DNA of 64,000 nucleotides. Origin: Deltaproteobacteria bacterium HGW-Deltaproteobacteria-18. Its GTDB lineage: Bacteria; Desulfobacterota; Desulfovibrionia; Desulfovibrionales; Desulfomicrobiaceae. Both the position numbers and the translations under genes were made by a program. This document shows, piece after piece, positions 2,118 to 62,972 of this stretch. Within the stretch, counting starts at the first letter, position 1, and each line of letters starts with the position of its first letter. The notes below the pieces were generated by a model. It searched no databases. It was not told where the DNA came from and was given only the letters and a program-made list of their open reading frames with translations. The stretch covers positions 62,001 through 126,000 of the forward strand of contig PHBE01000009.1 of the NCBI GenBank assembly GCA_002841885.1, in the 5' to 3' direction.

Positions 2118-3548
2118 ATGAAGAACCCCATCGAATCCAAGAAACATAAAGTTCTCATCGCCAATCGGGGAGAGATCGCCATCCGCATCATGCAGGCCTG
2201 CCGCAAGCTTGGCCTGGCATTCGTGGCGCTTTTCACCGAACCGGACAAGGACAGCGAGCACTGCGTCCTGGCACGCAAGCTTGGCGGGGACGAGTCCCTG
2301 TACCGTGTCAGTTCATATCTCGACGCCAACGAAATCTTTGCTGTGGCGGATCAGGCCGGAGCCACGGCGATTCATCCCGGATATGGCTTTTTTGCCGAGG
2401 ATTACCGTTTTGCCCGCCGCGTGGCCCAGCGCGAGCAAAAACTCATATTCATCGGGCCTTCCTGGCAGGTCATCCGCGAACTCGGCGACAAGATCAACAC
2501 CAAGCGTCTGGCTCGCAAGCTTGGCGTGCCCACGGTTCCCGGATCGGACAAGCCCGTGACGGATGACCTCGAAGCCGAGCACATCGCCAAGTCCCTGTTC
2601 GATTTTCAAAAAGAGCAGGGCATCAACAAACCCGTCATCCTGGTCAAGGCTTCGGCCGGGGGTGGGGGCATGGGTATCGAGGAAGTGGACGATCTGGACA
2701 AGTTCCGCAGCGTCCTGCGACGCATCAAGAGCTACTCCAAGCGCCAGTTTCGCGACGAAGGCGTGCTCATCGAGCAGCGCATCTTTGACTTCAACCATCT
2801 CGAAGTGCAGGTGTTGTCCGACCGCACGGGCCAGAACCCCGTCCATTTCGGCACCCGCAACTGCTCGGTGCAATCACCCGGCCATCAGAAGCGCATCGAG
2901 GTCGCGCCCGGTTTCGATCCCTCATCACTGCGCTACGCCTTTGACGCAAAAAAGGTGCTCGAAGACATCACCGAGTATTCCCTGCGCATGGCCAGGGAGG
3001 CCGGGTACGACAACGTCGGAACCTGGGAATGGATCGTCAGTCCCACCGGGCAGCCGTTTCTGATGGAAGTCAACACCCGCATCCAGGTCGAGAACGGAGT
3101 TTCGGCGCGCATCGCCGCCATCAAGGGCAAGGGCGACGTGGACCTCATCGCGGAGCAGATCCGCGTGGGCCTGGGCGCTCCTCTTGGTTACACCCAGAAA
3201 GACATCACTCTGAACGGCGTCGGCATAGAGTACCGCATCATCGCCGAAGATACGGACAACAAGTTCGCCCCCTGGGTGGGCCGCATCACCGCCTTTGACT
3301 GGCCCAAGCAGGATTGGCTCAAGATGCACAGTCAGGTGCCTACCGATCGCGAGTACGAGATCCCTACGGATTTCGACCCGAACCTGGCCCTGGCCATCAT
3401 CTGGGGCAAGGATCTGGCCCAGGCCAAGGAGCGGGGAGTGGAGTTCCTGGGTTCCCTGACCCTGCAGGGCATCAACGCTTCCGGTGAAGCCATGAAGTCC
3501 AATGTCGAATTCCTCAAACGCAAGACCGAGGGCATCCTGGCTTTCTAG
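2118..3548 (+). CDS. biotin carboxylase-like subunit of an acyl-CoA carboxylase
   Basis: A 476-residue ATP-grasp protein close in length to AccC (~450). The N-terminus KVLIANRGEIAIRIMQACR is the classic biotin carboxylase start, followed by HPGYGFFAED, a glycine-rich lid KASAGGGGMG, GTRNCSVQSPGHQKRIEVAP and EVNTRIQVEN. It should carboxylate biotin using ATP and bicarbonate. Departures from canonical AccC are visible: the lid is GGGGMG rather than GGGGRG, and the residues after the catalytic Glu read NGVS rather than HPVTE. The ATG at 2118 is chosen because family similarity starts there and AAGGAAAGG precedes it. The carboxyltransferase and a biotinyl-like protein follow on the same strand. 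Confidence 0.87.
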   Translation: MKNPIESKKHKVLIANRGEIAIRIMQACRKLGLAFVALFTEPDKDSEHCVLARKLGGDESLYRVSSYLDANEIFAVADQAGATAIHPGYGFFAEDYRFARRVAQREQKLIFIGPSWQVIRELGDKINTKRLARKLGVPTVPGSDKPVTDDLEAEHIAKSLFDFQKEQGINKPVILVKASAGGGGMGIEEVDDLDKFRSVLRRIKSYSKRQFRDEGVLIEQRIFDFNHLEVQVLSDRTGQNPVHFGTRNCSVQSPGHQKRIEVAPGFDPSSLRYAFDAKKVLEDITEYSLRMAREAGYDNVGTWEWIVSPTGQPFLMEVNTRIQVENGVSARIAAIKGKGDVDLIAEQIRVGLGAPLGYTQKDITLNGVGIEYRIIAEDTDNKFAPWVGRITAFDWPKQDWLKMHSQVPTDREYEIPTDFDPNLALAIIWGKDLAQAKERGVEFLGSLTLQGINASGEAMKSNVEFLKRKTEGILAF

Positions 3549-3607
3549 GATTCAAGCCGGCTTCGGGATCACATCCGTGCCGAATACTGATTAAGCGCTC
3601 AAGCTAC

Positions 3608-3623
3608 GCCGGAAAAATCCGGC
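3608..3623 (+). other. short hairpin between carboxylase subunit genes
   Basis: A perfect 6-bp stem GCCGGA/TCCGGC with an AAAA loop sits 35 bases before the carboxyltransferase start. There is no following T-run, so it is more likely an mRNA processing or stabilising element than a terminator. Confidence 0.4.
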
Positions 3624-3657
3624 ATAACCCAAGCATGCGAGGCAATCGCGCACTCTT

Positions 3658-5898
3658 ATGGATATCGAAAAACGCATACAAGAACTTCGGGACCGCCTGA
3701 AATATATTCTGGACATCTTCGGACCCGATGAAAATACCAATGTCATCATGCTGGAAGCCAAGCTTGGCGAGTACGTCGCTCGCGAGCCGGGTCTGTCCAA
3801 GCAGGAAGCCATCCGGCAACTGGAAACCCTGGAAGAGCTGTTTCGCTTCCTGGAGAAGAAGCTCGAACGCGAGCTGACTCCCATGAACAAGGTGCGCATC
3901 GTGCGGCATCCGCAGCGCATCTGCCTCAAGGACATCCTTGAAAACGTGTACGACAACTACACCGAGATCGGCGGTCAGGACGATTACAGCATCGATCCGA
4001 GCATGCTCATCGCCCGGGCCTACATCACCCGCAGGCGCGGCAAGAAGGTCCACAACCAGGCGGTCATGGTCATCGGCCAGGAAAAGGGCCATGGCCAGGA
4101 GTTCCGCAACGGCGGTTCGGTCAAGCCCTGGGGTAACGCCAAGGCCCTGCACTACATGAAGGTCGCGGAGACGGAGAACATTCCGATCCACACCTACATA
4201 TTCACCCCCGGTTCCTATCCCATCGAGGACTATCCGGGAGCGGCCCAGCAGATCGCCAAGAATCTCTACGAGATGGCCGGGCTCAAGGTGCCGATCGTTG
4301 CCGTCATCTCCGAAGGCGGGTCCGGCGGAGCCGAGGCCATCGGCCTTGCCGACACGCGCATCATGATGTCGCACGGCTACTATTCGGTCATCTCGCCCGA
4401 GGGTGCGGCCGCCATCGAGGGTCGGCTGCGCGGCGGACAGCGCGCCGAGCCCAAACTCATCGAGCACTGCGCCAAGCAGCTCAAGATGACGGCCGACGAC
4501 AACCGCGCCATGGGTTTCGTGGACTGGAAAATCAACGAGCCGGAGCTTGGTGCCCGGCCGGAACATTACGACTTCTTCCGCAAGCTGCGCAAATCCGTGG
4601 TCTCTTCGACGGACGAGATAGTCCTGAATATCAGGGGTATGCGCTTTTTCAGGTCCCTCGCGCTACGGCGTCACAAGGGCGCGGACGTGTATGTGCGCTG
4701 GAGCCTCGACAGCCGGGCCAAGGAGCGTCTGCTCTGGACCCGCTACATGAAATTCCGCCGCATGGCGCAGGATGCCTACCTGGACAAACGCCACTGGTTC
4801 AGCCGGAGCAGCGAGTGGACCAGCGAGTTCTTCTCATCCCTGTACTCCTATTTCCGCTACGACCTCTTCGGCAAACAGCACAAGAAGGTCACGGAGCTGG
4901 CCGAGGACGTGCACGCGGAGATGCAAGTCGTGGTCGGGCGCTCTTCGCGGTATTGGAAGAACGTCATGTCCAAACTGTCTTTCGGCAAGGCCAAGAAGGA
5001 CGTGGACAAGGCCGGACTGACCTCCCTGTCCACCTGGGACGACGGAGCGCTGAACAGCGGCAAGTGGCAGTACGTCAGCCCCCAGGCCAAGCTCGACCGG
5101 GCCGTGGTTTGCCCCAACACCGCCGTGCACGGATGCCTTGATCAGTGGGCCCCGGATCTTTTCGGCGAGTGGGCCGGGGTGTGCAGCTTCTGTGGGCACC
5201 ATTTCCCCATGGAATACCAGTGGTACCTGCACAACATCTTCGATCCCGGCTCCATCTACGAGGTCTTCAGCGAGATCGAGTCCACCAATCCCCTCAAATT
5301 CGACGGCTTCGACCTGAAGCTCGATGAGGCCAAACGCAAGACCGGCCACAAGTGCGGGTGCATGACCTTCGAAGCCCGCATCGAGGGCACGTCCGTCATG
5401 GTCGCCATGTTCATGGGCGCTTTCCGTGGCGGCAGCGTGGGCGCTGCCGAGGGCGAAAAGTTCGTGCGTGCCATGGAGCGTGCGCGCAAGAAGCAGCTTC
5501 CATTCCTGTCCTATGTGCACGGCACTGCGGGCATCCGCATCCAGGAAGGCGTCAACGGCGTCATCCAGATGCCGCGCTGCACCATGGCCGTGCGCCGCTA
5601 CACGGAAGCCGGCGGTCTGTATCTGGTGCTCTACGACACCAACTCCTACGCCGGGCCGGTGGCCAGTTTTCTGGGGTGCTCGCCGTACCAGTTCTCGGTG
5701 CGTTCGGCCAATATCGGTTTTGCCGGTCCCGGAGTCATCAAGGAGACCACGGGCATGGATATCCCGCCCAATTACCACAACGCCTATCAGGCGCTGTCTC
5801 GCGGGCATATCCAGGGTATATGGGATCGCCGGGAAATCCGGGGCAACCTGGTCCAGTCCCTGCAGACCATGGGTGGCCGCAACCTTTATTACCGTTAG
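3658..5898 (+). CDS. fused alpha/beta carboxyltransferase of acyl-CoA carboxylase
   Basis: A single 746-residue chain with two crotonase-fold carboxyltransferase halves in the order AccA-like then AccD-like. The N-terminal half has EKGHGQEFRNGGSVKPWGN and SEGGSGGAEAIGLAD, as in AccA. The C-terminal half opens with a four-cysteine zinc-finger-like stretch (CPN...GC...VCSFCGHHFP, about residues 485-520), then GGSVGAAEGEKF and the oxyanion-hole region GPVASFLGCSPYQFSV, as in AccD. A linker of ~150 residues with little similarity joins them. It transfers CO2 from carboxybiotin to an acyl-CoA, presumably acetyl-CoA for fatty acid synthesis. In most bacteria these are two proteins; the fusion is familiar from Desulfovibrio-type genomes. 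The ribosome-binding site is weak. Confidence 0.9.
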   Translation: MDIEKRIQELRDRLKYILDIFGPDENTNVIMLEAKLGEYVAREPGLSKQEAIRQLETLEELFRFLEKKLERELTPMNKVRIVRHPQRICLKDILENVYDNYTEIGGQDDYSIDPSMLIARAYITRRRGKKVHNQAVMVIGQEKGHGQEFRNGGSVKPWGNAKALHYMKVAETENIPIHTYIFTPGSYPIEDYPGAAQQIAKNLYEMAGLKVPIVAVISEGGSGGAEAIGLADTRIMMSHGYYSVISPEGAAAIEGRLRGGQRAEPKLIEHCAKQLKMTADDNRAMGFVDWKINEPELGARPEHYDFFRKLRKSVVSSTDEIVLNIRGMRFFRSLALRRHKGADVYVRWSLDSRAKERLLWTRYMKFRRMAQDAYLDKRHWFSRSSEWTSEFFSSLYSYFRYDLFGKQHKKVTELAEDVHAEMQVVVGRSSRYWKNVMSKLSFGKAKKDVDKAGLTSLSTWDDGALNSGKWQYVSPQAKLDRAVVCPNTAVHGCLDQWAPDLFGEWAGVCSFCGHHFPMEYQWYLHNIFDPGSIYEVFSEIESTNPLKFDGFDLKLDEAKRKTGHKCGCMTFEARIEGTSVMVAMFMGAFRGGSVGAAEGEKFVRAMERARKKQLPFLSYVHGTAGIRIQEGVNGVIQMPRCTMAVRRYTEAGGLYLVLYDTNSYAGPVASFLGCSPYQFSVRSANIGFAGPGVIKETTGMDIPPNYHNAYQALSRGHIQGIWDRREIRGNLVQSLQTMGGRNLYYR

Positions 5899-5900
5899 GA

Positions 5901-6046
5901 GACCGTTGAAAAATGGCGATCTGCCGCGTCAGCGAAAAAATCCAGACCGCTCATGTATGCGCAATACACCGCGCGCCCTGGATTTTTTCGCTTCCTTGCA
6001 TCTCACCATTTTTGAACGGTCTGCGAATTTTGAATTTTTCAGTCAG
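5901..6046. repeat. dispersed palindromic repeat, copy 1
   Basis: Outer arms at 5901-5919 (GACCGTTGAAAAATGGCGA) and 6003-6021 are inverted repeats with two mismatches. Inside them a perfect 14-bp inverted pair, GCGAAAAAATCCAG / CTGGATTTTTTCGC, encloses a 32-bp core (5946-5977). A second copy lies at 43357-43505 in the same outer orientation but with the core inverted, and the tail 6022-6046 is shared too. The element carries no gene and sits inside the carboxylase operon. The inner stem followed by TTTTTT could act as a partial terminator. Confidence 0.8.
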
Positions 6047-6059
6047 TTAGGAGTCACCA

Positions 6060-6710
6060 GTGATCGACGTTAAAGAATTGTTGCGGGAGCTGCGCGAGGA
6101 GCCTTACGAGAAGATCTCCATCAGGGCTCCCCATAGCGGAAAGGTGGAATTCGTGGCCAAGGAGCCCGGAGTGCGGGTCGTCGGCCCCAGCGGCACCTGG
6201 AAGGAGGTCCCCGGGACCCTGCTGGTCCGGATGGAGCGCGAAAATGTCAAGAAACCTCTCTTCGCCCCGCAGAAGGGTGAGGTCATGTCCCTGGGCGAAA
6301 TCGAAAACGGCCAGTTCGTGCAGGCCGGTCAGGAGCTCATGACCATCCGTCATTACCTGACCCGCGAAGAGGTCATCGCTCGCATCCTGCGCCGCTCCCT
6401 GTCCCTGTTTCTGGCTCCGGAGAAGGGCAAGTATTATTTCTTCCCCGACGTGGACATCAAGGTCAAGACCAAGGGCAGCCAGAGCGTGCACATAGAGGAC
6501 GGGCTGGAACTCTTCATCCTCTCGCGCATGAAGCGTGAGACCTCGATCCGCTACAGCGGCCCGGCCGGCATCATCTATGCCGTCTATTTCGAGACCAACG
6601 ACTCCGTGGACCGGGACAGCCCGCTCATCGGCGTCTGCCCCGAAGACCAGCTTGGCCAGATCCAGGAAGTCGTCAGCCGCGTGCAGAGCGACTGGGAGGA
6701 GAGAGACTGA
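6060..6710 (+). CDS. biotinyl/lipoyl-domain-like protein of the carboxylase operon, no biotinyl-lysine motif
   Basis: A 216-residue protein starting at GTG 6060 behind TTAGGAG. Residues ~20-100 resemble a biotinyl/lipoyl hammerhead: RAPHSGKVEFV, a strand LLVRMERENVKKPLFAP, then GEVMSLGEIENGQFVQAGQELMTI written here in two pieces, GEVMSLGEIENG and QFVQAGQELMTI. The position corresponding to the biotinylated lysine of the EAMKM motif appears to be Asn, within MERENVKK. The C-terminal ~100 residues are of unknown type. The context implies a role with the carboxylase, as carrier, scaffold or regulator. Whether it is biotinylated is doubtful. Confidence 0.7.
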   Translation: MIDVKELLRELREEPYEKISIRAPHSGKVEFVAKEPGVRVVGPSGTWKEVPGTLLVRMERENVKKPLFAPQKGEVMSLGEIENGQFVQAGQELMTIRHYLTREEVIARILRRSLSLFLAPEKGKYYFFPDVDIKVKTKGSQSVHIEDGLELFILSRMKRETSIRYSGPAGIIYAVYFETNDSVDRDSPLIGVCPEDQLGQIQEVVSRVQSDWEERD

Positions 6711-7060
6711 TGGGCAAGGTCCTTCAGGTTCGAGTGTACGCCTACACCTACAGCGAGGAAGATGTCCGCAAGGCATGGCCAAGGCTCTGGAGCCTGGCCT
6801 TCGAGGAGACCAAGCCGGGATTTCCTTACGAGATGGCAGGGGTTCTTGAGCTTGTCAGGGCCCTTGATGACCTGTATCAGTTCGGAGTCATTGCCGAGGC
6901 CATCAGCAAGGTTTTGGCCTCGGAGCTTCCCAAGGTCGTGAAGGCGGTGGAGGAGTTGCAGCGGCACCTCGCCGACTGGAATCCGCAGGCCGCCAACCAG
7001 GCCTCCGACCGCATTGAAGAGGGGCTTGGCGAGCTGGAAAAACTGGTGGCCAATCCATGA
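6710..7060 (+). CDS. small conserved-looking protein of unknown function
   Basis: A 116-residue protein whose ATG overlaps the preceding stop by one base (TGATG), implying translational coupling with the biotinyl-like gene. The N-terminus VLQVRVYAYTYSEEDVRKAW looks like a beta-alpha unit. The rest is rich in helices with heptad-like Leu/Val (LPKVVKAVEELQRHLADW, IEEGLGELEKLV). No signal peptide, cysteines or known motif is seen. The tight coupling suggests a carboxylase-associated function, but this is only inference. Confidence 0.7.
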   Translation: MGKVLQVRVYAYTYSEEDVRKAWPRLWSLAFEETKPGFPYEMAGVLELVRALDDLYQFGVIAEAISKVLASELPKVVKAVEELQRHLADWNPQAANQASDRIEEGLGELEKLVANP

Positions 7061-7087
7061 CCGCATCAACATACACGAGGAGACGAC

Positions 7088-7576
7088 ATGGCAGGTAGTC
7101 TGAATAAAGCAATCTTGATCGGCCGTTTGGGCCGTGATCCGGAGATGCGCTACACCCCGTCCGGGCAGCCGGTGGCCAATTTTTCCATTGCCACGGATGA
7201 AACATACACGGGCAAAGACGGGCAGAAGGTCGAAAAGACCGAATGGCACCGCATCGTGGTCTGGGGCAAGCAGGCTGAATTCTGCGGCAACTATCTTGCC
7301 AAGGGCCGTCTGGTCTACATTGAGGGCAAGATCGAAACCCGCAAGTGGACGGACAAGGACGGCGTGGAGAAATACACCACGGAAATCAAGGCCGACCGCG
7401 TGCAGGGACTCGATTCCCGCCAGTCTGAAGGCGGCTACGCCCAGGCCCCGCAGTACCAGCAGCGCCCCCAGGGAGCACCCCAGGGCGGCTCCCAGAACGG
7501 CGGCCGTGGCTACGAAGACGACATGGGCCCGGCCTTCCCTTCCGAAGCCAGCGGGATGGATGACGCACCTTTTTAG
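7088..7576 (+). CDS. ssb: single-stranded DNA-binding protein
   Basis: A 162-residue SSB. The OB-fold begins LNKAILIGRLGRDPEMRYT and includes ATDETYTGKDGQKVEKTEWH, VVWGKQAEFCGNYLAKG and YIEGKIETRKW. A Gln/Gly/Pro-rich flexible tail follows, ending in the acidic tip MDDAPF, which matches the DDxPF partner-docking peptide. It binds ssDNA as a tetramer in replication, repair and recombination. The start has a GAGGAGA upstream. A strong terminator follows the stop. Confidence 0.97.
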   Translation: MAGSLNKAILIGRLGRDPEMRYTPSGQPVANFSIATDETYTGKDGQKVEKTEWHRIVVWGKQAEFCGNYLAKGRLVYIEGKIETRKWTDKDGVEKYTTEIKADRVQGLDSRQSEGGYAQAPQYQQRPQGAPQGGSQNGGRGYEDDMGPAFPSEASGMDDAPF

Positions 7577-7607
7577 CGAATACCTTTTTACAAACTGTAA
7601 ATAATAG

Positions 7608-7640
7608 AAGTGGAGTTACTGAAATGACTCCACTTTTTTT
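7608..7640 (+). terminator. Rho-independent terminator after ssb
   Basis: A 9-bp perfect stem AAGTGGAGT/ACTCCACTT with a 10-base loop is followed by TTTTTT, 32 bases after the ssb stop. Confidence 0.9.
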
Positions 7641-7689
7641 GTTATTGACACTTTTTGGTAAGCTGACTTCCCGGGAAACTTCGGACCAC

Positions 7690-7956
7690 TCAATTTTTGA
7701 GGGTTTCCCCAAGGTTCAGTTTTTTTCCATACTGCCGGCAGAAGTGTTCGGGCGTCATGTTGTTCAGGCTTGAATGCGGGCGAACGGAGTTGTAGTGCCG
7801 CCTCCGTTCATCGATCACAACCTGCGCCTCAGTCCGACACCGGAACCATTCTCTCGACAGGCACTCGTCTCGCAATTTGCCATTAAAACTCTCGTTCAAA
7901 CCGTTCTGCCATGGCTTGCCAGGCTCAATCAACGCCAGGTCCAGTATTCCGTTATT
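7690..7956 (-). pseudogene. IS3-family transposase (OrfB) C-terminal remnant
   Basis: The translation [20 protein letters not shown] continues with [11 protein letters not shown] and [19 protein letters not shown], the end of an IS3-type DDE integrase core with its last catalytic Glu (in NESFNG). The N-terminal part, including the first two catalytic Asp residues, is absent. An in-frame stop lies at 7957-7959 and recognisable similarity begins near 7944, just beside the inverted repeat at 7962-7996. It cannot transpose. No opposite IS end is visible nearby. Confidence 0.85.
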
Positions 7957-7961
7957 TTAAT

Positions 7962-7996
7962 GAATGCCCCGGAGATTCTGATTCTCCGGGGCATTC
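7962..7996. terminator. long perfect hairpin downstream of the minus-strand outer-membrane gene
   Basis: A perfect 14-bp inverted repeat, GAATGCCCCGGAGA and its complement, encloses a 7-base loop. On the minus strand it is followed by ATTAAAATAAC, only a poor U-tract. Its position after the gene ending at 8164 suggests the terminator of that unit. It also marks the edge of the IS3 remnant. Confidence 0.5.
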
Positions 7997-8163
7997 TGAC
8001 GATGCAGCCCCTGTGAAGGAGTTGTGAACAGGGATACTTCACCGCCTCTCATCATGATTCGTGAATCCACGGCTTCGGCATGCGACCGACGTCGGACTGC
8101 AGTTTCTCTGCTTCCGATGCCGCGGCACCGGGTCCATTGTCACACGAACGGCCGGGCTTCCCG

Positions 8164-9048
8164 TCAGAATTCCTTGGCGAGTGTGAAAACGGCCAGATTG
8201 CCCTCGGGCGCGTCCTTGGCCTGCACTTCGTGGAGAAATCGAAACGTCGCGCGGGTTTTCCAGGGTGCTATGATGTAGGAGATTTCGGGTCCAAGTGCCA
8301 GGGAACTGTCATGGACATCCTTGTCCCATGTAACGCCGCTGCCGGAGTCGTCGGTCATCTGTTTCTGCCAGTAGCCAGCCAGGCCGAATTCCCACATGCC
8401 GATCATTTTCCCCAGGCCGGCCTCGACGATGACGTTGTCGCCGTACCTGACGTCGGTTGCACTGTTTTCCGTATTGATCTCGTACCGCAACAAGGCGGAC
8501 AATGACCAAGTCCTGTCCTCGTCGAAAAAGTAGGTCCCCCCGATGTCGAGCATGTGCGTCCAATAATTCTTGCCCGGAGAGGCCGGCCGGTCCTTGTTGT
8601 AATCTCCCACAGGAAGAAAGATCTCGTAACCGAAAGCGATGTCCCACCTGTCCAGATGCCAGGACAGGAGGAGCGGGCATACGTCCACGTCGCCGATGCT
8701 GCTGCGCGTATCCCCGCCATAATTGGAGTACTGCACGTGCGTGTATGTCAGCGGGATGGTCGCGAACATGGCGTAGTCAGCTCCGAAAATCTTGTAGTCG
8801 GTCACCCACAAGGGTCTGATGGCGTCGCAGACCACGTCCAAATCGAAGTTGATGGGGATCTTGTGCCCGTCGCCATCGTTGACGCGGTCCGCATTGTAGG
8901 CCGCGAGATAATTGAGGAGGTAATATCCTGGTCCCGGAACGGACGCGACCTTCACGCCTTCCACGCCGGCCACGTAGTGGCCGTTTGCCGCCAGAGACGG
9001 AAGTGCCGACAGCAGGACGACAAGAAGTGCCAACAATGCTTTTTTCAT
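8164..9048 (-). CDS. outer-membrane beta-barrel protein, MetA-pathway/SphA-like
   Basis: A 294-residue protein with a clear signal peptide (MKKALLALLVVLLSALPSLA) followed by alternating aromatic beta-strands and the terminal motif LAKEF, ending in Phe as outer-membrane barrels do. It resembles the phenol-degradation MetA-pathway (SphA-type) barrels often found beside hydrocarbon or aldehyde oxidation genes. It probably lets a hydrophobic substrate of the neighbouring aldehyde oxidoreductase cross the outer membrane (inference from context). The start is supported by AAGGAAC 6 bases upstream. It is the third gene of the minus-strand unit beginning at 11782. Confidence 0.75.
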   Translation of the reverse strand: MKKALLALLVVLLSALPSLAANGHYVAGVEGVKVASVPGPGYYLLNYLAAYNADRVNDGDGHKIPINFDLDVVCDAIRPLWVTDYKIFGADYAMFATIPLTYTHVQYSNYGGDTRSSIGDVDVCPLLLSWHLDRWDIAFGYEIFLPVGDYNKDRPASPGKNYWTHMLDIGGTYFFDEDRTWSLSALLRYEINTENSATDVRYGDNVIVEAGLGKMIGMWEFGLAGYWQKQMTDDSGSGVTWDKDVHDSSLALGPEISYIIAPWKTRATFRFLHEVQAKDAPEGNLAVFTLAKEF

Positions 9049-9087
9049 GTAAAAGTTCCTTTTGATGGATCTTGTGTTGCGATGACC

Positions 9088-40333: not shown

Positions 40334-41153
40334 ACGCCGCGAATGTCCTTTCGAAGTCCGGTGCCGGGACGAGGCAGCCGTGTTCCGTGAGAATCAGGAT
40401 CTTGTTCCCGGCTTCGTCATGCCGGATGCCGCCCCGGATTTGACCCGGGTTGAAGGGGAGCCTGGCCAGGATGCGCCGCCATGGCGAGGCTGGATCGGCA
40501 AAGCGCGCTTGCGTGGAGTCGTTTGAACTGACGCTCAATTCACGACCGTGTTCGCGCAGGATTTTTTTTTCGAGCCACGCTTCAAGGGCAGTTTCTGCCA
40601 GAAGCACGCTGGCCGGTGCAAGACGCTCAAAGACAAGCCTTGAGCGGGCGATGGAGAACTCCAGCCTGAAAGCGCCGGGGCGAAACGAAGCCTTGTCCAG
40701 GACCGCATGCGGCGGAGTTTCGAGCCGCAGGTCGTAGCAGCGCCAGCTGCGCCATGCATCGGGGGGGGTCCAGTCCAGCGACTCCAATACCGAGCGGAGC
40801 AGGGCCTGCGGCGGGGGAGCGGAAAATAGGGCGGCGACAACCGCCTTTTTTTCCGTCGGATGCAGCACAAAAAGCCTGGGCTCGGCGGAGGGGGCGGCCC
40901 AGACCTCGCCCCTCAACCTGCTGGCCCGCGACGCACGAAAGGGAGTCAGACTTGCGTCGCCGATTCCCGAAGCCTTGAGCAGCCGTGGGCCGTCCTTGTC
41001 CGGACTGAAGATGGACTTTTCCGGGCCGAAGCGCAGATCAAGGACCGGCAGGTCCGTCCCGGCAAGCCGCACAAAGCCGCGATCCAGGATCACGGGTTGC
41101 ATGCCGGCCGGTATCTCCAGTCGCAGGCCGTCCCAGCCGAGCGAACCGGTCAT
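40308..41153 (-). CDS. protein of unknown function encoded between PqqD-like and secreted protein genes
   Basis: 281 residues, not recognised. No signal peptide or membrane segment. The start overlaps the upstream stop (ATGA) and its end overlaps the PqqD-like gene, so all three are translationally coupled. Features are an N-terminal beta-rich region (LRLEIPAGMQPVILDRGFVR), a central RSWRCYDLRLETPP and a helical FERLAPASVLLAETALEAWL. The coupling suggests a complex with the PqqD-like protein. Confidence 0.7.
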   Translation of the reverse strand: MTGSLGWDGLRLEIPAGMQPVILDRGFVRLAGTDLPVLDLRFGPEKSIFSPDKDGPRLLKASGIGDASLTPFRASRASRLRGEVWAAPSAEPRLFVLHPTEKKAVVAALFSAPPPQALLRSVLESLDWTPPDAWRSWRCYDLRLETPPHAVLDKASFRPGAFRLEFSIARSRLVFERLAPASVLLAETALEAWLEKKILREHGRELSVSSNDSTQARFADPASPWRRILARLPFNPGQIRGGIRHDEAGNKILILTEHGCLVPAPDFERTFAAYAAIAIQG

Positions 41154-41752
41154 TGCGGGATGAGCAGCCGGTAGTCGAGCTTGTTCGCGGGGGTCGGATG
41201 GCGACCGTTTCGAGCCTCGGATTCATTCCTGGCGTCCCGGCAGGCGGCTTCGCTGAGCCACAGGGAGCGCAGGGTCATCTTCACGAAATTGCCCGTCTTG
41301 GAGCTTTCGTCCCTGCTGTGGGTCAGTTCGAGATTGACCTGCTCACCTTCGGAGTTGATGAAGCTCCATTTCCAGGACATTACCGTCTGAAAGGGATCGC
41401 CGCGCCATTCGAGAGGCTTGCCGAAACGATCCTGGTAGCGATTCAGCAGGTTGTCGAAGAACCCGCGGGTTGCATCCTCGAATTTTAGCTTGATGCGCAC
41501 GATCCGGCCGACCTGATCGCAGTTGGCGTACGCCACGGTGCCCCCCCTGATGCCGGGAGCGTAGTAGGGACTGAGTTCGACCTCGATCAGGTGCCGCTCC
41601 TGGGAAAGGGGGATCTTTGTATGTATCTCGCAGATGTCGTGGATGCTGGAGACGTCCTCGCCGAGAACGATGCCTCCCAGGGACGTCGGAAAAACTTCGG
41701 CCTGGACAGAGGTGGCCATGAACAGCCAAAGAAGAAGTATGCAGCGTTTCAT
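41150..41752 (-). CDS. exported protein of unknown function
   Basis: 200 residues from ATG 41752 with a signal peptide (MKRCILLLWLFMATSVQA). The mature part, beginning EVFPTSLGGIVLGEDVSSI, contains two lone cysteines and a Trp-rich segment WRGDPFQTVMSWKWSF. Its layout resembles small periplasmic proteins encoded with signalling genes. It is the first gene of the PqqD unit and is divergent from the SpoIIE phosphatase gene, 63 bases away. Function unknown. Confidence 0.75.
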   Translation of the reverse strand: MKRCILLLWLFMATSVQAEVFPTSLGGIVLGEDVSSIHDICEIHTKIPLSQERHLIEVELSPYYAPGIRGGTVAYANCDQVGRIVRIKLKFEDATRGFFDNLLNRYQDRFGKPLEWRGDPFQTVMSWKWSFINSEGEQVNLELTHSRDESSKTGNFVKMTLRSLWLSEAACRDARNESEARNGRHPTPANKLDYRLLIPQ

Positions 41753-41815
41753 GCACACGATCCTATTCCAGTCCCGCGCAGGTTGTCCAGCCGCGAACGG
41801 GGGGAGGAGTTTCTC

Positions 41816-43354
41816 GTGACCAGAGTCCTCGTGTATTACGGCTTAATGCTCTTGGTGCTGACCTTTTACGGCGGCCAGGTCTGACCTTTCGTCGACTCGC
41901 TTCCGGTCTGGAAGTTCTTCATCACCCTGGCCGCGCACCTTGCCGTCGCCCTGGCCCTGCGGCAGCTCCTCATCCCCCGGCTGGTCAAGCCTCTGCCCGT
42001 GCCGCGGCAGTCGACACGCCTGCTGTTCCTGGACTTCGCCCTCTTCGTGGGCGCGGGTCTGGCTGTGGGCGTGTATCATCATCTTTTCTGGGGGTTTCCG
42101 GTCTTCAGCGGCGTGGAGATCATCATAGGTTTCGCCACTATCGGCCTTTTCGCCGCCCTGGATCTGAGTCTGGAGTGGGAGCACCGCGTCATTGCACACA
42201 CGGACATGGCCGAAGTCCACCGTCCCGGCCCAGCCTCCTTCTTTCCCCAGACCCGGCGTTTCGCCTACCTCTCCTCAGGGATCATCATCTTCGTAACCAT
42301 GGTTCTGCTCGCTCTGCTCATGCGCGACATCACTTGGCTCGAGGCCCAGGAAAAGGCCGCTCAGGACCTGTCCACCCTGCTGTGGGCCGTGATCTGGGAA
42401 GTGCTTTTCGTCATGGGCATCCTGCTGGTCATGACCCTGATCCTGGTCTTTTCCTATGCCCGCAATCTGAAGCTCCTCTTCCGCAACCAGACCTCGGTCC
42501 TGGAAATGGTCAGCCGCGGCCGTCTGGATACCAAGGTCCCCGTGGTGACCAACGACGAGTTCGCGGTCATCGCCGGGCACACCAACGTCATGATCGATCG
42601 CCTGGTGGAGCGGGAGCGGATGGTGCATGGCCTGGAGTTGGCCCGGCAGATCCAGGCGAATCTGCTGCCGACCGCCTCGCCCTACCTGCCGGGCCTGCAG
42701 CTCTACGGGGCCAGTGTCTTCTGTGAGGAGACGGGCGGGGATTTCTACGATTTCATGGTCCGCGACGGCGTCGGCGGACCGGAGTTGGTGGCGGTCATCG
42801 GCGACGTGACCGGACACGGCGTGGGCGCGGCCCTGCTCATGGCTTCCATCAGGGCTTACCTGAAAGCCCTGCTCCTGCAGGGACTGGACCTGGCCGAGGT
42901 CATGACGCGCGCCAACTCTCTCATCCACGCGGATGTGGACGACAGCGGCAATTTTGTCACCGCCTTCGTGCTGTCCTACTGTCCGGACACGCGCCGGGCC
43001 GCCTGGGTCGGGGCCGGGCACGACCCTGCCTGGTTCGTCGCCGAGGGTGGCACGGTCAGTCGCAGTCTGGCTGGCCGGGACATTCCCCTCGGGGTCACGC
43101 CGGGCTGGGAGTACACGGAACTTTCGGAGGAGCTGGAAAAGGGCGTGCTCGTCATGGGCACAGACGGAATTTGGGAGGCCGGGATAGAAGGGAAGGGGAT
43201 GTTCGGCAAGGAGCGGCTTTTGAGTGTGGTCAGACGGAACCTGCAGGCGTCGCCTCAGGACCTCGCCTCGCGCATCCTGGACGCCGTGGATGCGTACACC
43301 GAAAACGCCCGCGTCGAGGACGACCGGACAGTGGTCATTGCCCGTCTGGCATAG
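41816..43354 (+). CDS. membrane SpoIIE-type phosphatase with an in-frame TGA at codon 23
   Basis: From GTG 41816, behind GGGGAGGAG, the frame reads VTRVLVYYGLMLLVLTFYGG then QV, meets TGA at 41882-41884, and continues PFVDSLPVWKFFITLAAHLA. If read through, the product is 512 residues with six membrane segments, a HAMP domain (RNQTSVLEMVSRGRLDTKVP) and a PP2C-type SpoIIE domain (GGDFYDF, GDVTGHGVGAALL, GTDGIWEAG, EDDRTVV). A restart at GTG 41999 has no ribosome-binding site and would lose two membrane helices. The TGA could encode selenocysteine (see hairpin 41900-41914) or be a nonsense change from Trp. It should dephosphorylate the STAS protein encoded next door, in a partner-switch cascade. 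Confidence 0.85.
41900..41914 (+). promoter_or_regulatory. SECIS-like hairpin after the in-frame TGA
   Basis: CTTCC-GGTCT-GGAAG forms a 5-bp stem, extendable by one G-U pair, with apical loop GGUCU. This is identical to the apical loop of the E. coli fdhF selenocysteine insertion element. The loop begins 20 bases after the TGA, within the usual bacterial spacing. The hairpin is short, so chance is possible. Confidence 0.45.
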
Positions 43355-43356
43355 CA

Positions 43357-43505
43357 GGCCGCCTCAAAAACGGCGATCTGCTGCGTCAGCGGGAAAAGCC
43401 AGGACGCGCAGTGTATTGCGCATACATAAGCGGTCTGGCTTTTTTCGATTCCTTGCGTCTCACCATTTTTGAACGGCCTGCGAATTTTGATTTTTTCAAC
43501 AGTCA
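43357..43505. repeat. dispersed palindromic repeat, copy 2
   Basis: Same outer arms and tail as 5901-6046, between the convergent SpoIIE and STAS genes. The inner stem (GCCAG/CTGGC) encloses a 32-bp core at 43403-43434 that matches the reverse complement of the copy-1 core in 29 of 32 positions. The arms themselves have not flipped. It may double as a terminator for both flanking genes. Confidence 0.8.
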
Positions 43506-43844
43506 GAGCAGGTCGACCTCCCGCAGGGCCATCGCCATGTCGGGGCACATGGCGAAGATGCGGTCGTAGCCTGAGATGTCGAAGATCTCGGCAATGTAGT
43601 CCCGGACGCCGCAGATCAGGACCTGCCCGCCGCGTGGGTTCAGACGCTGGTAGCTCATGACCAGGATGCGCAGGCCGGCGCTGTTGATATACTCAAGTTC
43701 CGAGAAATCCATGATCAGGTGCCTGACGCCGCGGTCGAGGCTTTGCAGGACCTTTTTCTCGAGTTCGGCAGTGGTCGCTGCGTCGAGGCGCCCCTTGACC
43801 TGAAAGACGGCGGCAGCGGGGTGCTCTATTTCGTGGAGTTGCAT
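43503..43844 (-). CDS. STAS-domain anti-sigma factor antagonist (RsbV/SpoIIAA-like)
   Basis: 113 residues from ATG 43844, chosen because AGGAG precedes it and the domain starts there. The STAS fold is seen in VFQVKGRLDAATTAELEKKV and the phosphorylation loop HLIMDFSELEYINSAGLRIL, with the Ser of NSAG being the conserved kinase target. It should be phosphorylated by the RsbW-like kinase, whose gene it overlaps by 19 bases, and dephosphorylated by the convergent SpoIIE phosphatase. Its output partner is unknown. Confidence 0.92.
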   Translation of the reverse strand: MQLHEIEHPAAAVFQVKGRLDAATTAELEKKVLQSLDRGVRHLIMDFSELEYINSAGLRILVMSYQRLNPRGGQVLICGVRDYIAEIFDISGYDRIFAMCPDMAMALREVDLL

Positions 43845-44269
43845 GCTTTCTCCTGCATGTTCTTGCTGATGGTGAGCCTGGTGCGGTTGCGTCCGCCGCT
43901 GCGGGTGTAGTCCATGCGTGCTGCCAGGTTGCGCACCAGGCACAGGCCCATGCCGCCGATGCGGACGTCCCCATGTTTTGCGCATCTCTCCAGAGTGTGT
44001 GCAGTGGGGTCGAAGGGCGTGCAGGTGTCGACGATTTCCACGATCATGTCCTCCTCGCCGTCCGTCACGACGACGGAAACTTCGCAGTCCTGCCCCCGGC
44101 TCTTGCCGTGGGTCAGGCTGTTGGAAACGATCTCGTCGACGATGAGGCCCAGACGGTAGCGTAACGCGTCGGGCAGAGCCCTGGCCCTGGCGAATTCCTC
44201 CAGGGCTGCGAGCAGGTTCTGCTGGTCGTCCTCCGGACGGTTCAGGGAAAAATCGAATCTGGCGGTCAT
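43826..44269 (-). CDS. RsbW-type anti-sigma factor/serine kinase
   Basis: 147 residues, a GHKL ATPase: N box LIVDEIVSNSLTHGKSRG, then IVEIVDTCTPFDP and G box GGMGLCLVRNLAARMDYTRS. This is the HATPase_c_2 form used by RsbW/SpoIIAB-like switch kinases. The start at 44269 follows AAAAGGA; an upstream start at 44290 is possible. With the STAS protein and the SpoIIE phosphatase it makes a complete partner-switch module. No sigma factor gene is nearby. Confidence 0.9.
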   Translation of the reverse strand: MTARFDFSLNRPEDDQQNLLAALEEFARARALPDALRYRLGLIVDEIVSNSLTHGKSRGQDCEVSVVVTDGEEDMIVEIVDTCTPFDPTAHTLERCAKHGDVRIGGMGLCLVRNLAARMDYTRSGGRNRTRLTISKNMQEKACNSTK

Positions 44270-44345
44270 GGCGTCCTTTTCTCTAGGCATAGAGTAGGGT
44301 ACTCAGGAAATCAAACCACAACTCGACAAGGATTGGCAACAGTTC

Positions 44346-46832
44346 ATGGTGACCAAGCGCAGCCTGAATTCCTGGGTGCTCGAAAAAAACGGACGATGGC
44401 AGCTGCTCATCGTCCTCTTGGTCGTGGGGACCGTGGCCATCCGCGTCGTGCCGCTGGAGATGCAGAAGCGCATCGTCAACCAGGCCATCGGCCGGGGCGA
44501 CATGGAACTGCTCGTCCTCTACTGCCTGCTCTTCGTGGGTTCGACGCTTTTGTCCAGCACCCTCAAGTTCTGCATCAATCTCCTGCAGGCCTACATCGGG
44601 CAGCACACCCTGCTCCGCATGCGCATCACCCTGCACGAGCACATCCTGAGTCTGCCGCTGTCCTTTTTCCGGACCATTCAGCCCGGCCAGGTCATCAACG
44701 CCCTCATCAACGAACTCGCCTCGGTCTCCGGATACATCGGCAGCGCCGTGTCCGTGCCCCTCATCAACGTCTGCACTCTTCTGGCCATGGGAGGCTACCT
44801 CTTCTACCTCAACCCGCTCCTGGCGGGGATGAGCTTCGTCATCTATCCTCTGCAGATCGTGGTGGTGCCCCGTCTGCAGAAGCGCGCCAACGAGGCCAAC
44901 CGTTACCGCGTTCAGATCAGCCGGGCCATTTCCGGCAGCATCGGCGAGGTTATCACCGGCGTGCACGAGGTGCACGGCCACGCCGGCTTCGCCCTGGAGA
45001 ACGAGAAATTCGCCAGCCAGGCCCGGCACCTCCTCAAGGCCAACGTGCGCATGAACGCCTACCGTTACGGCATCAAGTTCGCCAACAACTTCTTCGAGCA
45101 CTTGGGGCCTTTCCTGCTTTTCCTGGTGGGCGGTGCCATGACCATCCGTGGTCACTTCGATCTCGGCGCCCTGGTGGCCTTTCTCTCGGCCTACGCGAGC
45201 CTGAGCGACCCCTGGCGCGAGCTCATGGATTTCTACCAGCTCAGGGAGGACAGCCGGGTGCGGTACTCCAACGTCATGGCCGCCTTCGACCTCACGCCCG
45301 ATCACCTGCTCGTGCCCGTGGGCCGCGACGTGCACCGGCTGCGCGGCGACATCGACCTGGAAGGCGTGGCCTTCAGAACCCCCGAGGGCGCGCGCATCAT
45401 CGAGGGCGTCAACCTCAGCATCCGTGCGGGCGAGATGGTGGCCCTGGTCGGCTTTTCGGGCAGCGGAAAGTCCACCCTGGTCAAGGTCATCGCCCAGCTC
45501 ATGCCGTACACCGGAGGGCGAGCGCGCATCGACGGCCACGAGGTGCACGAACTGACCAAGCTCGACGTAGCCGAGAATCTGGGCATGGTGCCGCAACATC
45601 CCTTCATATTCAGCGGCACGGTCCGGGAGAACCTGCTCTATTCCAGCAGCGCCAGCGCCGCCAACCGCGTCCCAGGCTTCATGCCGCCGGACCTGGACCG
45701 CATCATAGAGGTGGTCCAGCAAGTCGGGTTGTTCCTGGACATCCTCAAGTTCGGCAGCCAGGCCAACATCACACCGGAAGAGCACCCGGAGCTCGTAGAG
45801 CGTGTGCTGCAGATGCGCCGCCTCTTCCGGGAGCGTTACGAGGTGCAGTTCGCCGAGGACATCGAGTTTTTCGACCAGAGGCGTTATCTGAACTACGGCT
45901 CCATCCTCAAGAACATCGTTTTCGGGGATTTCATCGAGCGCAGGGCCCGTCTGGAGGACGCCCTGAGCGACCGGCATTTCATCGAGTTCCTCGAACACAG
46001 CGGCCTGGACAGGATCCTGGTGGACTTCGGCGCCATCGTGGCAGTCGCGACCGTTCCCATCCTGCGTTACGGTGCGCAGACCCCCGAGCTATATGCCGAA
46101 AGCCCCATCTCCAGGGATGACGTGGACAGCTACGCCCAGATCGTGTCGGAAATGGGGGCACGGGGGCAGGGTTCCCTATCGAAAGCCTCCCATAACCTGC
46201 TGCTGCGTCTGGCCTTGAAGTTCGAGTCCGGCCGCCACAAGACCGTGCGCATGCCCGAACAGCTCAAGGACCGCATCCTGGGCGCCAGGTCGGAATTCCG
46301 CGATTTCATCAAGGACATGGAAGACCTGAGGCTGCGCTATCTGGAACCCACCCGTTACCTTGAGTCCTACAGCATCCGCGAGAACATCCTCTTCGGGCAG
46401 CCCAAGTCGGGCCGCTCCGGGACACTGGAGCGCATCAACCAGCACCTGGTACAGCTCCTCATCGAGGAGGGGGTGCTGGAGCGCATCGTGGAACTTGGAC
46501 TCGAATTCCAAGTGGGCAGCATGGGCGAATACCTCTCGGGCGGGCAACGCCAGAAGGTCGCCCTGGCGCGGGTCTTTCTCAAGCAGCCGGCTGTGTACGT
46601 CCTGGACGAGGCCACGGCGGCCCTGGACAACGCGTCTCAGGCTCGGGTTCAGAATTTTCTTCGGACCGTGCGCGGAAAGCACACGGTCATCTCCGTTGTT
46701 CATCGTCTGGACACGGTTTCCCATTACGACCGGATCGTGGTCATGAAAGCCGGAAAGATCGTGGAGAGCGGTCCGTACGACGAACTCATGGCCGCCAAGG
46801 GGGTGCTTCATGGTCTCGTCGGAACAGTCTGA
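44346..46832 (+). CDS. ABC exporter half-transporter with a large insertion in the ATPase domain
   Basis: 828 residues against ~580 for ordinary exporters. The first ~310 residues form a type I exporter membrane domain. Walker A (VGFSGSGKST, ~368) and a normal Q-loop (MVPQHPFIFSGTVRENLLY) follow, but the signature LSGGQRQKVALAR lies at ~729 and Walker B VYVLDEATAALD at ~750. Some 250 extra residues are inserted between Q-loop and signature, containing two further Q-loop-like stretches, LNYGSILKNIVFGD and LESYSIRENILFGQ. The cargo is unknown. The downstream cyclic-nucleotide-binding gene overlaps its end, so the two probably form a complex. Confidence 0.9.
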   Translation: MVTKRSLNSWVLEKNGRWQLLIVLLVVGTVAIRVVPLEMQKRIVNQAIGRGDMELLVLYCLLFVGSTLLSSTLKFCINLLQAYIGQHTLLRMRITLHEHILSLPLSFFRTIQPGQVINALINELASVSGYIGSAVSVPLINVCTLLAMGGYLFYLNPLLAGMSFVIYPLQIVVVPRLQKRANEANRYRVQISRAISGSIGEVITGVHEVHGHAGFALENEKFASQARHLLKANVRMNAYRYGIKFANNFFEHLGPFLLFLVGGAMTIRGHFDLGALVAFLSAYASLSDPWRELMDFYQLREDSRVRYSNVMAAFDLTPDHLLVPVGRDVHRLRGDIDLEGVAFRTPEGARIIEGVNLSIRAGEMVALVGFSGSGKSTLVKVIAQLMPYTGGRARIDGHEVHELTKLDVAENLGMVPQHPFIFSGTVRENLLYSSSASAANRVPGFMPPDLDRIIEVVQQVGLFLDILKFGSQANITPEEHPELVERVLQMRRLFRERYEVQFAEDIEFFDQRRYLNYGSILKNIVFGDFIERRARLEDALSDRHFIEFLEHSGLDRILVDFGAIVAVATVPILRYGAQTPELYAESPISRDDVDSYAQIVSEMGARGQGSLSKASHNLLLRLALKFESGRHKTVRMPEQLKDRILGARSEFRDFIKDMEDLRLRYLEPTRYLESYSIRENILFGQPKSGRSGTLERINQHLVQLLIEEGVLERIVELGLEFQVGSMGEYLSGGQRQKVALARVFLKQPAVYVLDEATAALDNASQARVQNFLRTVRGKHTVISVVHRLDTVSHYDRIVVMKAGKIVESGPYDELMAAKGVLHGLVGTV

Positions 46833-47304
46833 AAACCACCAATGCGAGCTGGAGTGCAACCTGCGCGTCCTGCGCGAGCTGCCCTTCCTGGCCGAACTGC
46901 CGGAGGAACTGCTGCGGGTAATGGCCTATCTGTGCGAACGGGAGACATTTGTCCCGGGACAGGCCGTATTCGAGGAGGGACAGCCGGCAGAAGGGGCGGT
47001 AGCCGTCATCACGGGGTCCATGGTCATTGAGCGGGGGGGGCGCAAGCTGGCCGCATTGAACGAGGGGATGTGCGCGGGCGGGCTCACGCTGCTGGGCCAG
47101 TACCGCTGGCTCTACACCCTGCGGGCCGAAACCGCGGCCGATTGCCTGCTTCTGCACCGACGCAGGCTTCTCCCCCAGCTTGTGGCCCAGCCCGCGTCCC
47201 TGGCCGCTGTGGCCCGGGAGCTTGTGGAGAGCGTGGTTTTCTGGGATTTGCAGCGTCTTGAACGTGGCGCCGACGGGGATGTTGCCGGGCCGGGATTGTT
47301 GTGA
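46810..47304 (+). CDS. cyclic nucleotide-binding (Crp-like sensor) domain protein
   Basis: 164 residues overlapping the ABC gene by 23 bases. A cNMP-binding fold is visible: LRELPFLAELPEELLRVMAY, FVPGQAVFEEGQPAEGAVAV, ITGSMVIERGG and LTLLGQYRWLYTLRAETAAD. There is no helix-turn-helix, so it is not a transcription factor. The phosphate-binding cassette is weakly conserved and ligand binding is uncertain. Coupling to the exporter suggests it regulates transport, as in exporters that carry fused cNMP domains. Confidence 0.82.
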   Translation: MVSSEQSENHQCELECNLRVLRELPFLAELPEELLRVMAYLCERETFVPGQAVFEEGQPAEGAVAVITGSMVIERGGRKLAALNEGMCAGGLTLLGQYRWLYTLRAETAADCLLLHRRRLLPQLVAQPASLAAVARELVESVVFWDLQRLERGADGDVAGPGLL

Positions 47305-61800: not shown

Positions 61801-62972
61801 GCCTGTGCTCCGAAGCTCTGGATTCGCTGGTTGATGATGTCGAAGGCGGTCATGGGGAAACCGGCCAGGGCCGCTTCGTAGGAGGCCGGTTCGTGCAGGA
61901 GTTTCTCGATGCATGCGAGCATGGGGGCCGGTTCGACGGTCTCCCACGGGATGTATTCCAGCAGTCCCCTGGCGGCGAAGAGTCTGGCCCGGATGAGCTG
62001 CTCTTCCCGCGGGACGCTGCGGGGGATGATGAGGGACGGGCGGGCAGCGCCGACGATCTCGCACATGGTGTTGTAGCCGCCCATGGAGACCACGCAGTCG
62101 GCGGCCAGGATGGCCTTTTCCATCTTGCGGTAGAACTTGCAGATGCGCACCTTGAGCTTACGGGCCCTGGCCGCGAGCTGGTCGTAAAGGTTCTCGGCCA
62201 GCATCGGGCCGGTCACGATCATGGTTTTGAACGGGGCATGGGGCAGGGTCTCGAGCATGGTCAGGTACGTGTCCACGACCTTGTGTCCGTCTCCGCCCCC
62301 GCCGGCCGTCACCAACACGAACTTTTCGCCCGGTGCTATGTTCATGCTGCGGCGGATGCGCGGGCGATGCTGGATACGCGGGATCTGCCGTGGGATGTAT
62401 CCGGTGAAATGCATCTTCGAGGCGATGTGGGCGGGAATTTCGTATTCTCGTACAGAATCGTACACCTCGCGGTTTCCGTAGACCCAGATCTCCGAATAGA
62501 GCGTATCCAGAGCGTCATAGATGTTCTTCCTGCGCCATTCCTCGATAGTGCTCTCGGGGCTGTCCATGATGTCGCGAAGCCCCAGCACGACTTGAGTTTT
62601 CGGGCTCTCTTCCCGCAACCAGCGCAAGGTCGGGACCACCTCGCGCTTGAGGCCCAGCGGGGCCTTGTCGACCAGAAAGAGGGAAGGCTTGAAAGCTTGC
62701 GCGGTGGCCAGGATGATGTTCTGGCGAATGGTCAGTGCCATCTCGGGCTCGACCTTTATCGAATGCGGCACATAGAGATCGTTGTTCTGTTTGATCATGC
62801 CCGGAACGCGCACGAAATCGATGCCTTGCGGGAAGTCGAACCGGCCGACGATGGGTGAACCCGTCAGGATGAGGATGTTGTGTTCCTCGGTCAGGATGTT
62901 TTGCGCCAGAGCCATGCTCCGACGGATATGTCCCAGGCCGTAGGTGTCGTGGGAGTACATGAGAATGTTCAC
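61797..62972 (-). CDS. MurG-like glycosyltransferase family protein
   Basis: 391 residues. MNILMYSHDTYGLGHIRRSM parallels the N-terminus of the protein at 57686-58858. The donor site is KFVLVTAGGGGDGHKVVDTY and CVVSMGGYNTMCEIVGAARP with IPRSVPREEQLIRARLF, as in MurG/UGT-like GT-B enzymes. It is the first gene of the operon. The bracketing of two GT4 enzymes and a phosphatase by two such proteins suggests one glycan pathway; the product is unknown. Confidence 0.9.
   Translation of the reverse strand: MNILMYSHDTYGLGHIRRSMALAQNILTEEHNILILTGSPIVGRFDFPQGIDFVRVPGMIKQNNDLYVPHSIKVEPEMALTIRQNIILATAQAFKPSLFLVDKAPLGLKREVVPTLRWLREESPKTQVVLGLRDIMDSPESTIEEWRRKNIYDALDTLYSEIWVYGNREVYDSVREYEIPAHIASKMHFTGYIPRQIPRIQHRPRIRRSMNIAPGEKFVLVTAGGGGDGHKVVDTYLTMLETLPHAPFKTMIVTGPMLAENLYDQLAARARKLKVRICKFYRKMEKAILAADCVVSMGGYNTMCEIVGAARPSLIIPRSVPREEQLIRARLFAARGLLEYIPWETVEPAPMLACIEKLLHEPASYEAALAGFPMTAFDIINQRIQSFGAQA

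Follow-up and report, generated by a model that had tools for sequence, protein, structure and literature searches.

Introduction

Bacterial selenoproteins with the SECIS element inside the gene, such as FdhA, combine an in-frame UGA, a downstream hairpin with a G in the first loop positions, decoding by SelB and tRNA-Sec, and relatives that carry Cys instead of selenocysteine (Sec). The locus described here shows the same combination, and it differs from those systems in that its product is no oxidoreductase by sequence and has the Sec in a membrane sensor domain. The papers cited here by PMC number were available to us only in part, and what we say of them is limited to those parts. According to one of them, a 2026 catalogue, the majority of the prokaryotic selenoproteins described so far either adopt a Trx-like fold or are related to thiol oxidoreductases (PMC13188914). 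If the Sec reading is true, selenium in a cell sensor rather than in an enzyme would be an unusual case, and a receptor phosphatase with Sec would bring selenium chemistry into signal reception.

A few described selenoproteins come close in one respect. A peroxiredoxin fused to a PP2C-type phosphatase is a selenoprotein (PMC2398784) and, like our protein, holds a PP2C-type phosphatase domain; unlike the fusion, our protein contains no peroxiredoxin domain that Pfam could find. A signalling protein has also been suggested to hold Sec, as "a histidine kinase" is named among the putative new selenoproteins of a deltaproteobacterial MAG on the basis of a bSECISearch prediction (PMC8318568). In Table 1 of the 2026 catalogue, an FmdB-family putative regulatory protein and a TonB-dependent receptor (FCYXU type) are similar in their regulatory or receptor names; they are other families by name, and neither is listed with MASE10 or SpoIIE. 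Among the 119 families in that table we found none with either domain and no membrane signal receptor (PMC13188914).

The phosphatase half belongs with the PP2C-type partner-switch phosphatases SpoIIE, RsbU and SiaA, with which it shares the PF07228 domain, nearly invariant Asp residues, a similar model structure and STAS and HATPase neighbours; what sets it apart is a MASE10 sensor with Sec, and matches of the family to the NCBIfam SpoIIE and SiaA models are far below the cut-offs. The sensor half is a clear MASE10 domain (PF20970), and differs from the usual form in that Sec replaces the Cys of its YGGxVCP motif. In the literature that we searched, the word MASE10 was found only among the locus tags of one paper.

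Sets of Sec proteins have been reported for sulfate reducers, with 31 in D. autotrophicum (PMC2702500) and five in Desulfococcus (PMC5109826); a third study counts 34 (PMC8318568). A term search of the main text of three further papers (PMC9312934, PMC12013277, PMC1794560) did not find the present family named. It is likely, though not proven, that the family is absent from print; subscription papers, preprints and supplements, including the tables of PMC2702500 and PMC8318568, in which the gene might already appear, were outside the scope of this search.

Results and discussion

The gene and its product

The gene lies in a window of 64,000 nucleotides, which is the whole stretch of DNA that was analysed (positions 62,001 to 126,000 of contig PHBE01000009.1, assembly GCA_002841885.1, Deltaproteobacteria bacterium HGW-Deltaproteobacteria-18, which we assign to the genus Desulfomicrobium); all coordinates below are window positions. 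An earlier, sequence-only reading had described a strong ribosome-binding site before a GTG codon, 22 codons, a TGA, and then an unbroken frame into HAMP and SpoIIE domains. Direct reading bears out the first part: the sequence gggggaggag stands upstream of the GTG, and after the single in-frame TGA the frame stays open up to a TAG that ends at 43354 (Table 1). As to the domains, SpoIIE holds (154.6 bits, Pfam cut-off 25), and HAMP (PF00672) does not, since the window protein reaches only 19.2 bits against a cut-off of 25; only 6 of 77 relatives match it at 1e-5. The MASE10 sensor, which had not been named, is found at 121.9 bits (cut-off 27). Gene finders that halt at TGA would shorten this gene or label it broken, and the program-made list of open reading frames for the window does cut it at the TGA.

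Table 1. Features of the selenoprotein locus and its surroundings (window coordinates).
Feature	Position	Strand	Basis or remark
Selenoprotein gene, 512 residues with the TGA read as Sec: MASE10 sensor, HAMP-like linker, SpoIIE (PP2C-type) phosphatase	41816-43354	+	frame, Pfam, model
Shine-Dalgarno-like gggggaggag ahead of GTG 41816	41800-41809	+	direct reading
In-frame TGA as putative selenocysteine, residue 23, end of helix 1	41882-41884	+	relatives, model
SECIS-type hairpin, six pairs (one G-U), loop GGUCU	41899-41915	+	folding, conservation
MASE10 membrane sensor domain (PF20970), residues 8-198	41837-42409	+	Pfam, model
SpoIIE phosphatase domain (PF07228), residues 324-511 by Pfam	42785-43348	+	Pfam, model, conserved Asp
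STAS-domain protein, likely anti-sigma-factor antagonist, likely phosphatase target	43503-43844	-	inferred
HATPase_c_2 protein, likely RsbW/SpoIIAB-like kinase	43826-44290	-	inferred from domain and place
ABC exporter, 828 residues, separated ATPase pieces	44346-46832	+	link to Sec system unproven
cNMP-binding protein, after the ABC exporter	46810-47304	+	
202-residue protein, signal-peptide-like start, divergent from the Sec gene	41150-41758	-	start by eye; no Pfam match

Among 77 relatives with the TGA, all match MASE10 and 75 match SpoIIE at 1e-5 in Pfam; two TGA copies are short, L006 with 200 residues and L067 with 232. We used these Pfam counts because counting SpoIIE by regular expression (31/45 and 30/32) proved too strict. 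Asp 309, 312, 330, 450 and 502 are nearly invariant in the 77 relatives, and we take the conserved Asp of PF07228 to be metal-binding. None of the 77 Sec proteins has a cyclase or HD domain at 1e-5, and among 73 mixed members 58 SpoIIE, 8 cyclase and 5 HD domains were found; cyclase and HD outputs are thus seen only with Cys or Ser. No NCBIfam model exceeds its cut-off for the window protein, and the three models that the 77 TGA copies match are not specific to the family.

AlphaFold models were made for the whole protein (mean pLDDT 85.3, pTM 0.57) and for the sensor alone (81.7 and 0.80), and in them six long helices precede the phosphatase. Residue 23 comes directly after helix 1, in a stretch (residues 21-30) where confidence is low (pLDDT 57 and 62). 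In a fold search the phosphatase part of the model resembled RssB, the RsbU domain of Rv1364c, SpoIIE and SiaA; for the sensor alone the best match among PDB folds reached only E 0.43.

Codon 23 in relatives

The sequence-only reading had asked what homologues carry at codon 23, and the answer is consistent: among 114 distinct copies in which the codon could be read, 78 have TGA, 33 Cys, 3 Ser and none Trp. An in-frame TGA that is conserved in some relatives and is Cys in others is what is expected of a bacterial selenoprotein. The common motif at the site is YGGxV-U/C-P, and in 77 TGA copies Y18, residue 23 and P24 are invariant. MASE10 thereby probably gains a functional Cys/Sec. The Ser found in three copies (L011, L081 and L153) indicates that the Sec/Cys group can also be lost altogether.

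These numbers were assembled from several searches. In 61 related genomes, the nine best homologues, which include that of the window and have identities of 43-100%, each contain exactly one in-frame TGA, at the same codon; matches of lower rank have none, and where they extend to the site they carry Cys or Ser. Across 247 genomes of the class, Pfam detected 74 MASE10 matches, spread over 68 genomes, and with one more from the search of 61 genomes the 75 distinct copies divide into 45 TGA, 27 Cys (TGC 20, TGT 7), 2 Ser and 1 unreadable; this first codon count left out eight second copies (L044, L045, L047, L051 and L095-L098). The unreadable MASE10 copy, L089 (G133:C16), is a fragment that appears broken or frame-shifted. 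A scan of named genomes added 45 loci, of which 43 were readable (39 TGA, 4 Cys; L138 and L142 were not); they include Desulfobacterales, Desulfobulbaceae, Desulfofustis, Desulfopila, Desulfatibacillum alkenivorans, Salidesulfovibrio brasiliensis and a Syntrophobacterales record, and a Latescibacterota record with Cys. TGA copies are thus spread over many genera and orders. After removal of repeats, including eight loci that repeat contigs (L099, L100, L101, L105, L108, L135, L137 and L143), 77 TGA, 30 Cys and 2 Ser copies remained. A phylum sample (395 genomes, 10 with MASE10) contributed five more, of which one has TGA, three have Cys and one has Ser. Some analyses used further subsets, namely one protein set without L006 and L089, and two others of 37 and 17 sequences. 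Among plasmid records, 181 had a match and none of these covered 80% of the query; in viral contigs no relative was found using a typed consensus as query.

The hairpin downstream of the TGA

The hairpin CTTCC-GGTCT-GGAAG occupies positions 41900-41914, and a G-U pair between 41899 and 41915 extends it by a sixth pair. It had been placed twenty bases after the TGA, which is right for the loop; the stem itself starts after 15 bases. We take GGUCU to be the loop of the E. coli fdhF SECIS. The published bSECIS model asks for a stem of 4-16 bp, a loop of 3-9 nt, a G in the first two loop positions, a spacing of 16-37 nt and a minimum free energy of at most -7.5 kcal/mol (PMC13188914, as far as available). 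The window hairpin meets the shape requirements with 6 bp, a loop of 5 that starts with GG, and a spacing of 20. On its own it is weak, at -6.5 kcal/mol; a 47-base stretch reaches -7.5 kcal/mol, at the limit of the published model.

A hairpin within these shape limits can be found in all 77 TGA copies and also, at scattered places, in 16 of 30 Cys copies, so that pairing at a fixed place is the stronger test. Two main forms exist at a fixed distance from the TGA: type A (36 TGA copies) has six pairs and a loop that is mostly GGUCU, and type B (41 copies) has up to seven pairs and a loop that is mostly CGUGnnnYU. All six pairs of one stem type are present in 75 of the 77 TGA copies, and five in the other two; of 32 Cys/Ser copies, only two have six pairs and five have five. 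When codons for the same residues were drawn at random with each gene's own usage, 5.0 +- 2.1 of 77 sequences were expected to keep six pairs, vs the 75 observed. This control treats the 77 as independent, and it is stronger than the shuffles described below. The proposal that the hairpin is SECIS-like is well supported by this pattern, in which TGA copies keep it and most copies with Cys or Ser lack it. L147, L148 and L152-L154 were left out of the hairpin scan, the pair counts and the codon control.

Covariation points to pairing less decisively. In type A, 99.5% of cells are paired with 9 changed on both sides, in type B 96.4% with 21 changed on both sides, and for neither type did any of 500 shuffles give as many cells changed on both sides. 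These changes are confined to one pair in type A and two pairs in type B, and the number of pairs with such a change was matched by 488 and 498 of 500 shuffles, respectively; further pair types were matched by 16 (type A) and 498 (type B). Because the sequences are related these shuffle counts are no probabilities, and common descent can by itself outdo shuffled data. In Cys/Ser copies, 54.7% (type A) and 43.8% (type B) of cells at these columns are paired. The type A value was reached by only 5 of 500 shuffles, so that a remnant of the type A stem persists in Cys/Ser copies.

One distant, lone TGA copy (L152, about 464-520) fits neither stem type by eye; it has a palindrome GGCCT...AGGCC, likewise seen by eye, which is perhaps a third hairpin form.

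Selenocysteine machinery and decoding of the TGA

The search for sel genes that the sequence-only reading had called for was successful. The genome encodes selA (623.8 bits), selB (366.5 bits) and selD (327.1 bits, itself with one in-frame TGA), as well as a tRNA-Sec (86.3 bits, ARAGORN) with anticodon TCA, and thus has the complete set of these four genes expected where a bacterial selenoprotein is made. The presence of selB discriminates little, since 213 of 247 genomes of the class have it. It is above cut-off in 47 of 49 genomes that hold a TGA copy (genomes of the named-genome scan not counted), and was not found above cut-off in the other two, G003 and G094, which consist of about 500 contigs each and both have selA.

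Two genomes that belong to one genus have selB close to the Sec gene, at a distance of about 4-5 kb or less (L157, G141, 3096-9068; G193:C1:666681-673728); in the first of these it is about 4 kb upstream, and NapC/NirT and cytochrome c552 genes lie in the interval.

We propose that SelB and tRNA-Sec would decode the TGA as Sec23, with the hairpin just downstream acting as the SECIS. The exchange of TGA and Cys at one codon, the kept hairpin and the machinery in the genome are the reasons to place Sec at residue 23, and on these comparisons we regard its insertion as close to certain, in the absence of any protein or 75Se evidence. That it is inserted into a working receptor phosphatase is very likely, again by comparison and without support at the protein level.

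A possible role for Sec23

From the positive-inside rule, helix 1 is inferred to start in the cytoplasm, which would place Sec23 at the periplasmic face. The protein likely senses redox state or a chalcogen and adjusts the activity of its phosphatase accordingly, where the sensed signal is itself inferred; the earlier suggestion of a redox sensor fits the data, and there are no functional data. Whether the Sec is the sensing group is, in our estimate, an even question. In the most specific form of this idea, Sec23 would be a dedicated selenium switch: a lone periplasmic selenol would react with an oxidant, sulfide/polysulfide or NO, or pair with the Sec23 of its partner in a dimer; the change would reach the SpoIIE phosphatase by way of the last helix and the HAMP-like linker; and the latter would dephosphorylate the STAS protein encoded next to it and thereby reset the HATPase kinase in a partner switch. 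We offer this only tentatively, as a scheme that may well turn out wrong. If true, it would describe a signal receptor with selenocysteine as the sensing group.

The distribution of Cys bears on how such a selenol could react. The window sensor has no Cys elsewhere by reading, and of 77 Sec forms 25 lack any other Cys in the sensor, whereas between one and five are present in the remaining 52. There is no conserved partner Cys: besides residue 23, the best column for Cys has it in 22 of 41 sequences and the best for His in 20 of 41 (L022 and L089 left out). A bond within one chain is thus unlikely as a general rule, and the data agree better with a bond across a dimer or with a selenol that reacts directly with a small molecule.

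The same lack of a second well-conserved Cys or His column can also be read to mean that Sec23 is real and is not the sensing group, being instead a metal or cofactor ligand at the periplasmic face or a structural or electron-accepting residue, in a receptor that senses something else. Tyr18, Trp174 and Met200, which are nearly invariant or invariant, would be in line with this, as would the three relatives with Ser and the L157 gene, which is preceded by NapC/NirT-type and cytochrome c552 genes. Against it, no cofactor-binding motif was recognised, and the sensor has no PDB fold match. Missing motifs and folds neither support nor exclude a non-sensing Sec23, and we consider it possible, at somewhat less than even chances.

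For the selenium-switch proposal, the genes next door would provide the output. STAS and HATPase_c_2 genes, which make up a partner-switch module, lie adjacent to one another downstream of the Sec gene and convergent with it. At 1e-4, 8 of 43 loci have relatives of both next to the gene, and in 35 of 43 no STAS relative was found near it at this threshold. At 1e-8, STAS relatives are found in 8 and HATPase relatives in 9 of the 43 loci, two of them (L126 and L136) far upstream. Some of the 43 loci repeat genomes that were used in other counts, and downstream sequence of at least 2.5 kb was available for 37. We lean moderately towards this pair being the direct targets in Desulfomicrobium, the action on the STAS protein being inferred.

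Relatives of the ABC exporter occur near the gene in 18 of 43 loci, Desulfobacterales included (13 over at least 540 residues), and those of the cNMP-binding protein in 7 of 43; some of these relatives are only short pieces. Both proteins may belong to the same system as the Sec gene, a link which is unproven. The divergent 202-residue protein has relatives in 12 of the 43 loci.

Other readings of the in-frame TGA

Three explanations do without Sec. In the first, the TGA ends a 22-codon leader peptide and the phosphatase starts later by reinitiation, an idea that draws some support from an in-frame start codon three codons past the TGA in 45 of 77 TGA copies. In the window, however, the next in-frame start is GTG 41999, which is 39 codons on and past helix 2; Cys relatives start at about the same place and are open through the same codon; and a leader peptide does not account for the invariant Y18, residue 23 and P24. 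We therefore reject reinitiation as very unlikely.

Some bacteria read TGA as Trp or Gly, and the codon could accordingly be translated as another amino acid, by a code change or by near-cognate readthrough. This is extremely unlikely here: 26 of the 44 TGA-bearing family genes for which the fetched sequence includes a stop (among them one short copy) end in TGA, so that TGA is not reassigned; the exchange partners at codon 23 are Cys or Ser and never Trp or Gly; and the genome has a tRNA-Sec whose anticodon is TCA.

A recent TGG-to-TGA nonsense mutation or a sequencing error in one genome, which the sequence-only reading had kept as the simple alternative given that a single base separates the two codons, is practically ruled out by the homologues, as TGA recurs in many genera and assemblies with only Cys or Ser and no Trp in the rest, and as the frame 3' of the TGA aligns to the protein end in 41 sequences.

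Exchange between Sec and Cys

With these readings set aside, the family as we interpret it, with Sec at the TGA, appears to have gone through several exchanges between Sec and Cys in its history. A tree with 114 rows requires the Sec label to change 10 times, and at least 8 of these changes fall on starred branches. This tree is a quick build in which long rows are unsure and the direction of change is not given; it leaves out the eight loci that repeat contigs (L099 to L143 in the list above), L089 and seven further repeats, and includes L147, L148 and L152-L154 in addition. The natural Sec, Cys and Ser variants are ready material for testing what Sec adds to the sensor. Two Cys copies, L035 and L043, still hold 6 and 5 of the 6 pairs of the type A stem; such a remnant is what a recent loss of Sec would leave, and both are likely recent changes from Sec to Cys.
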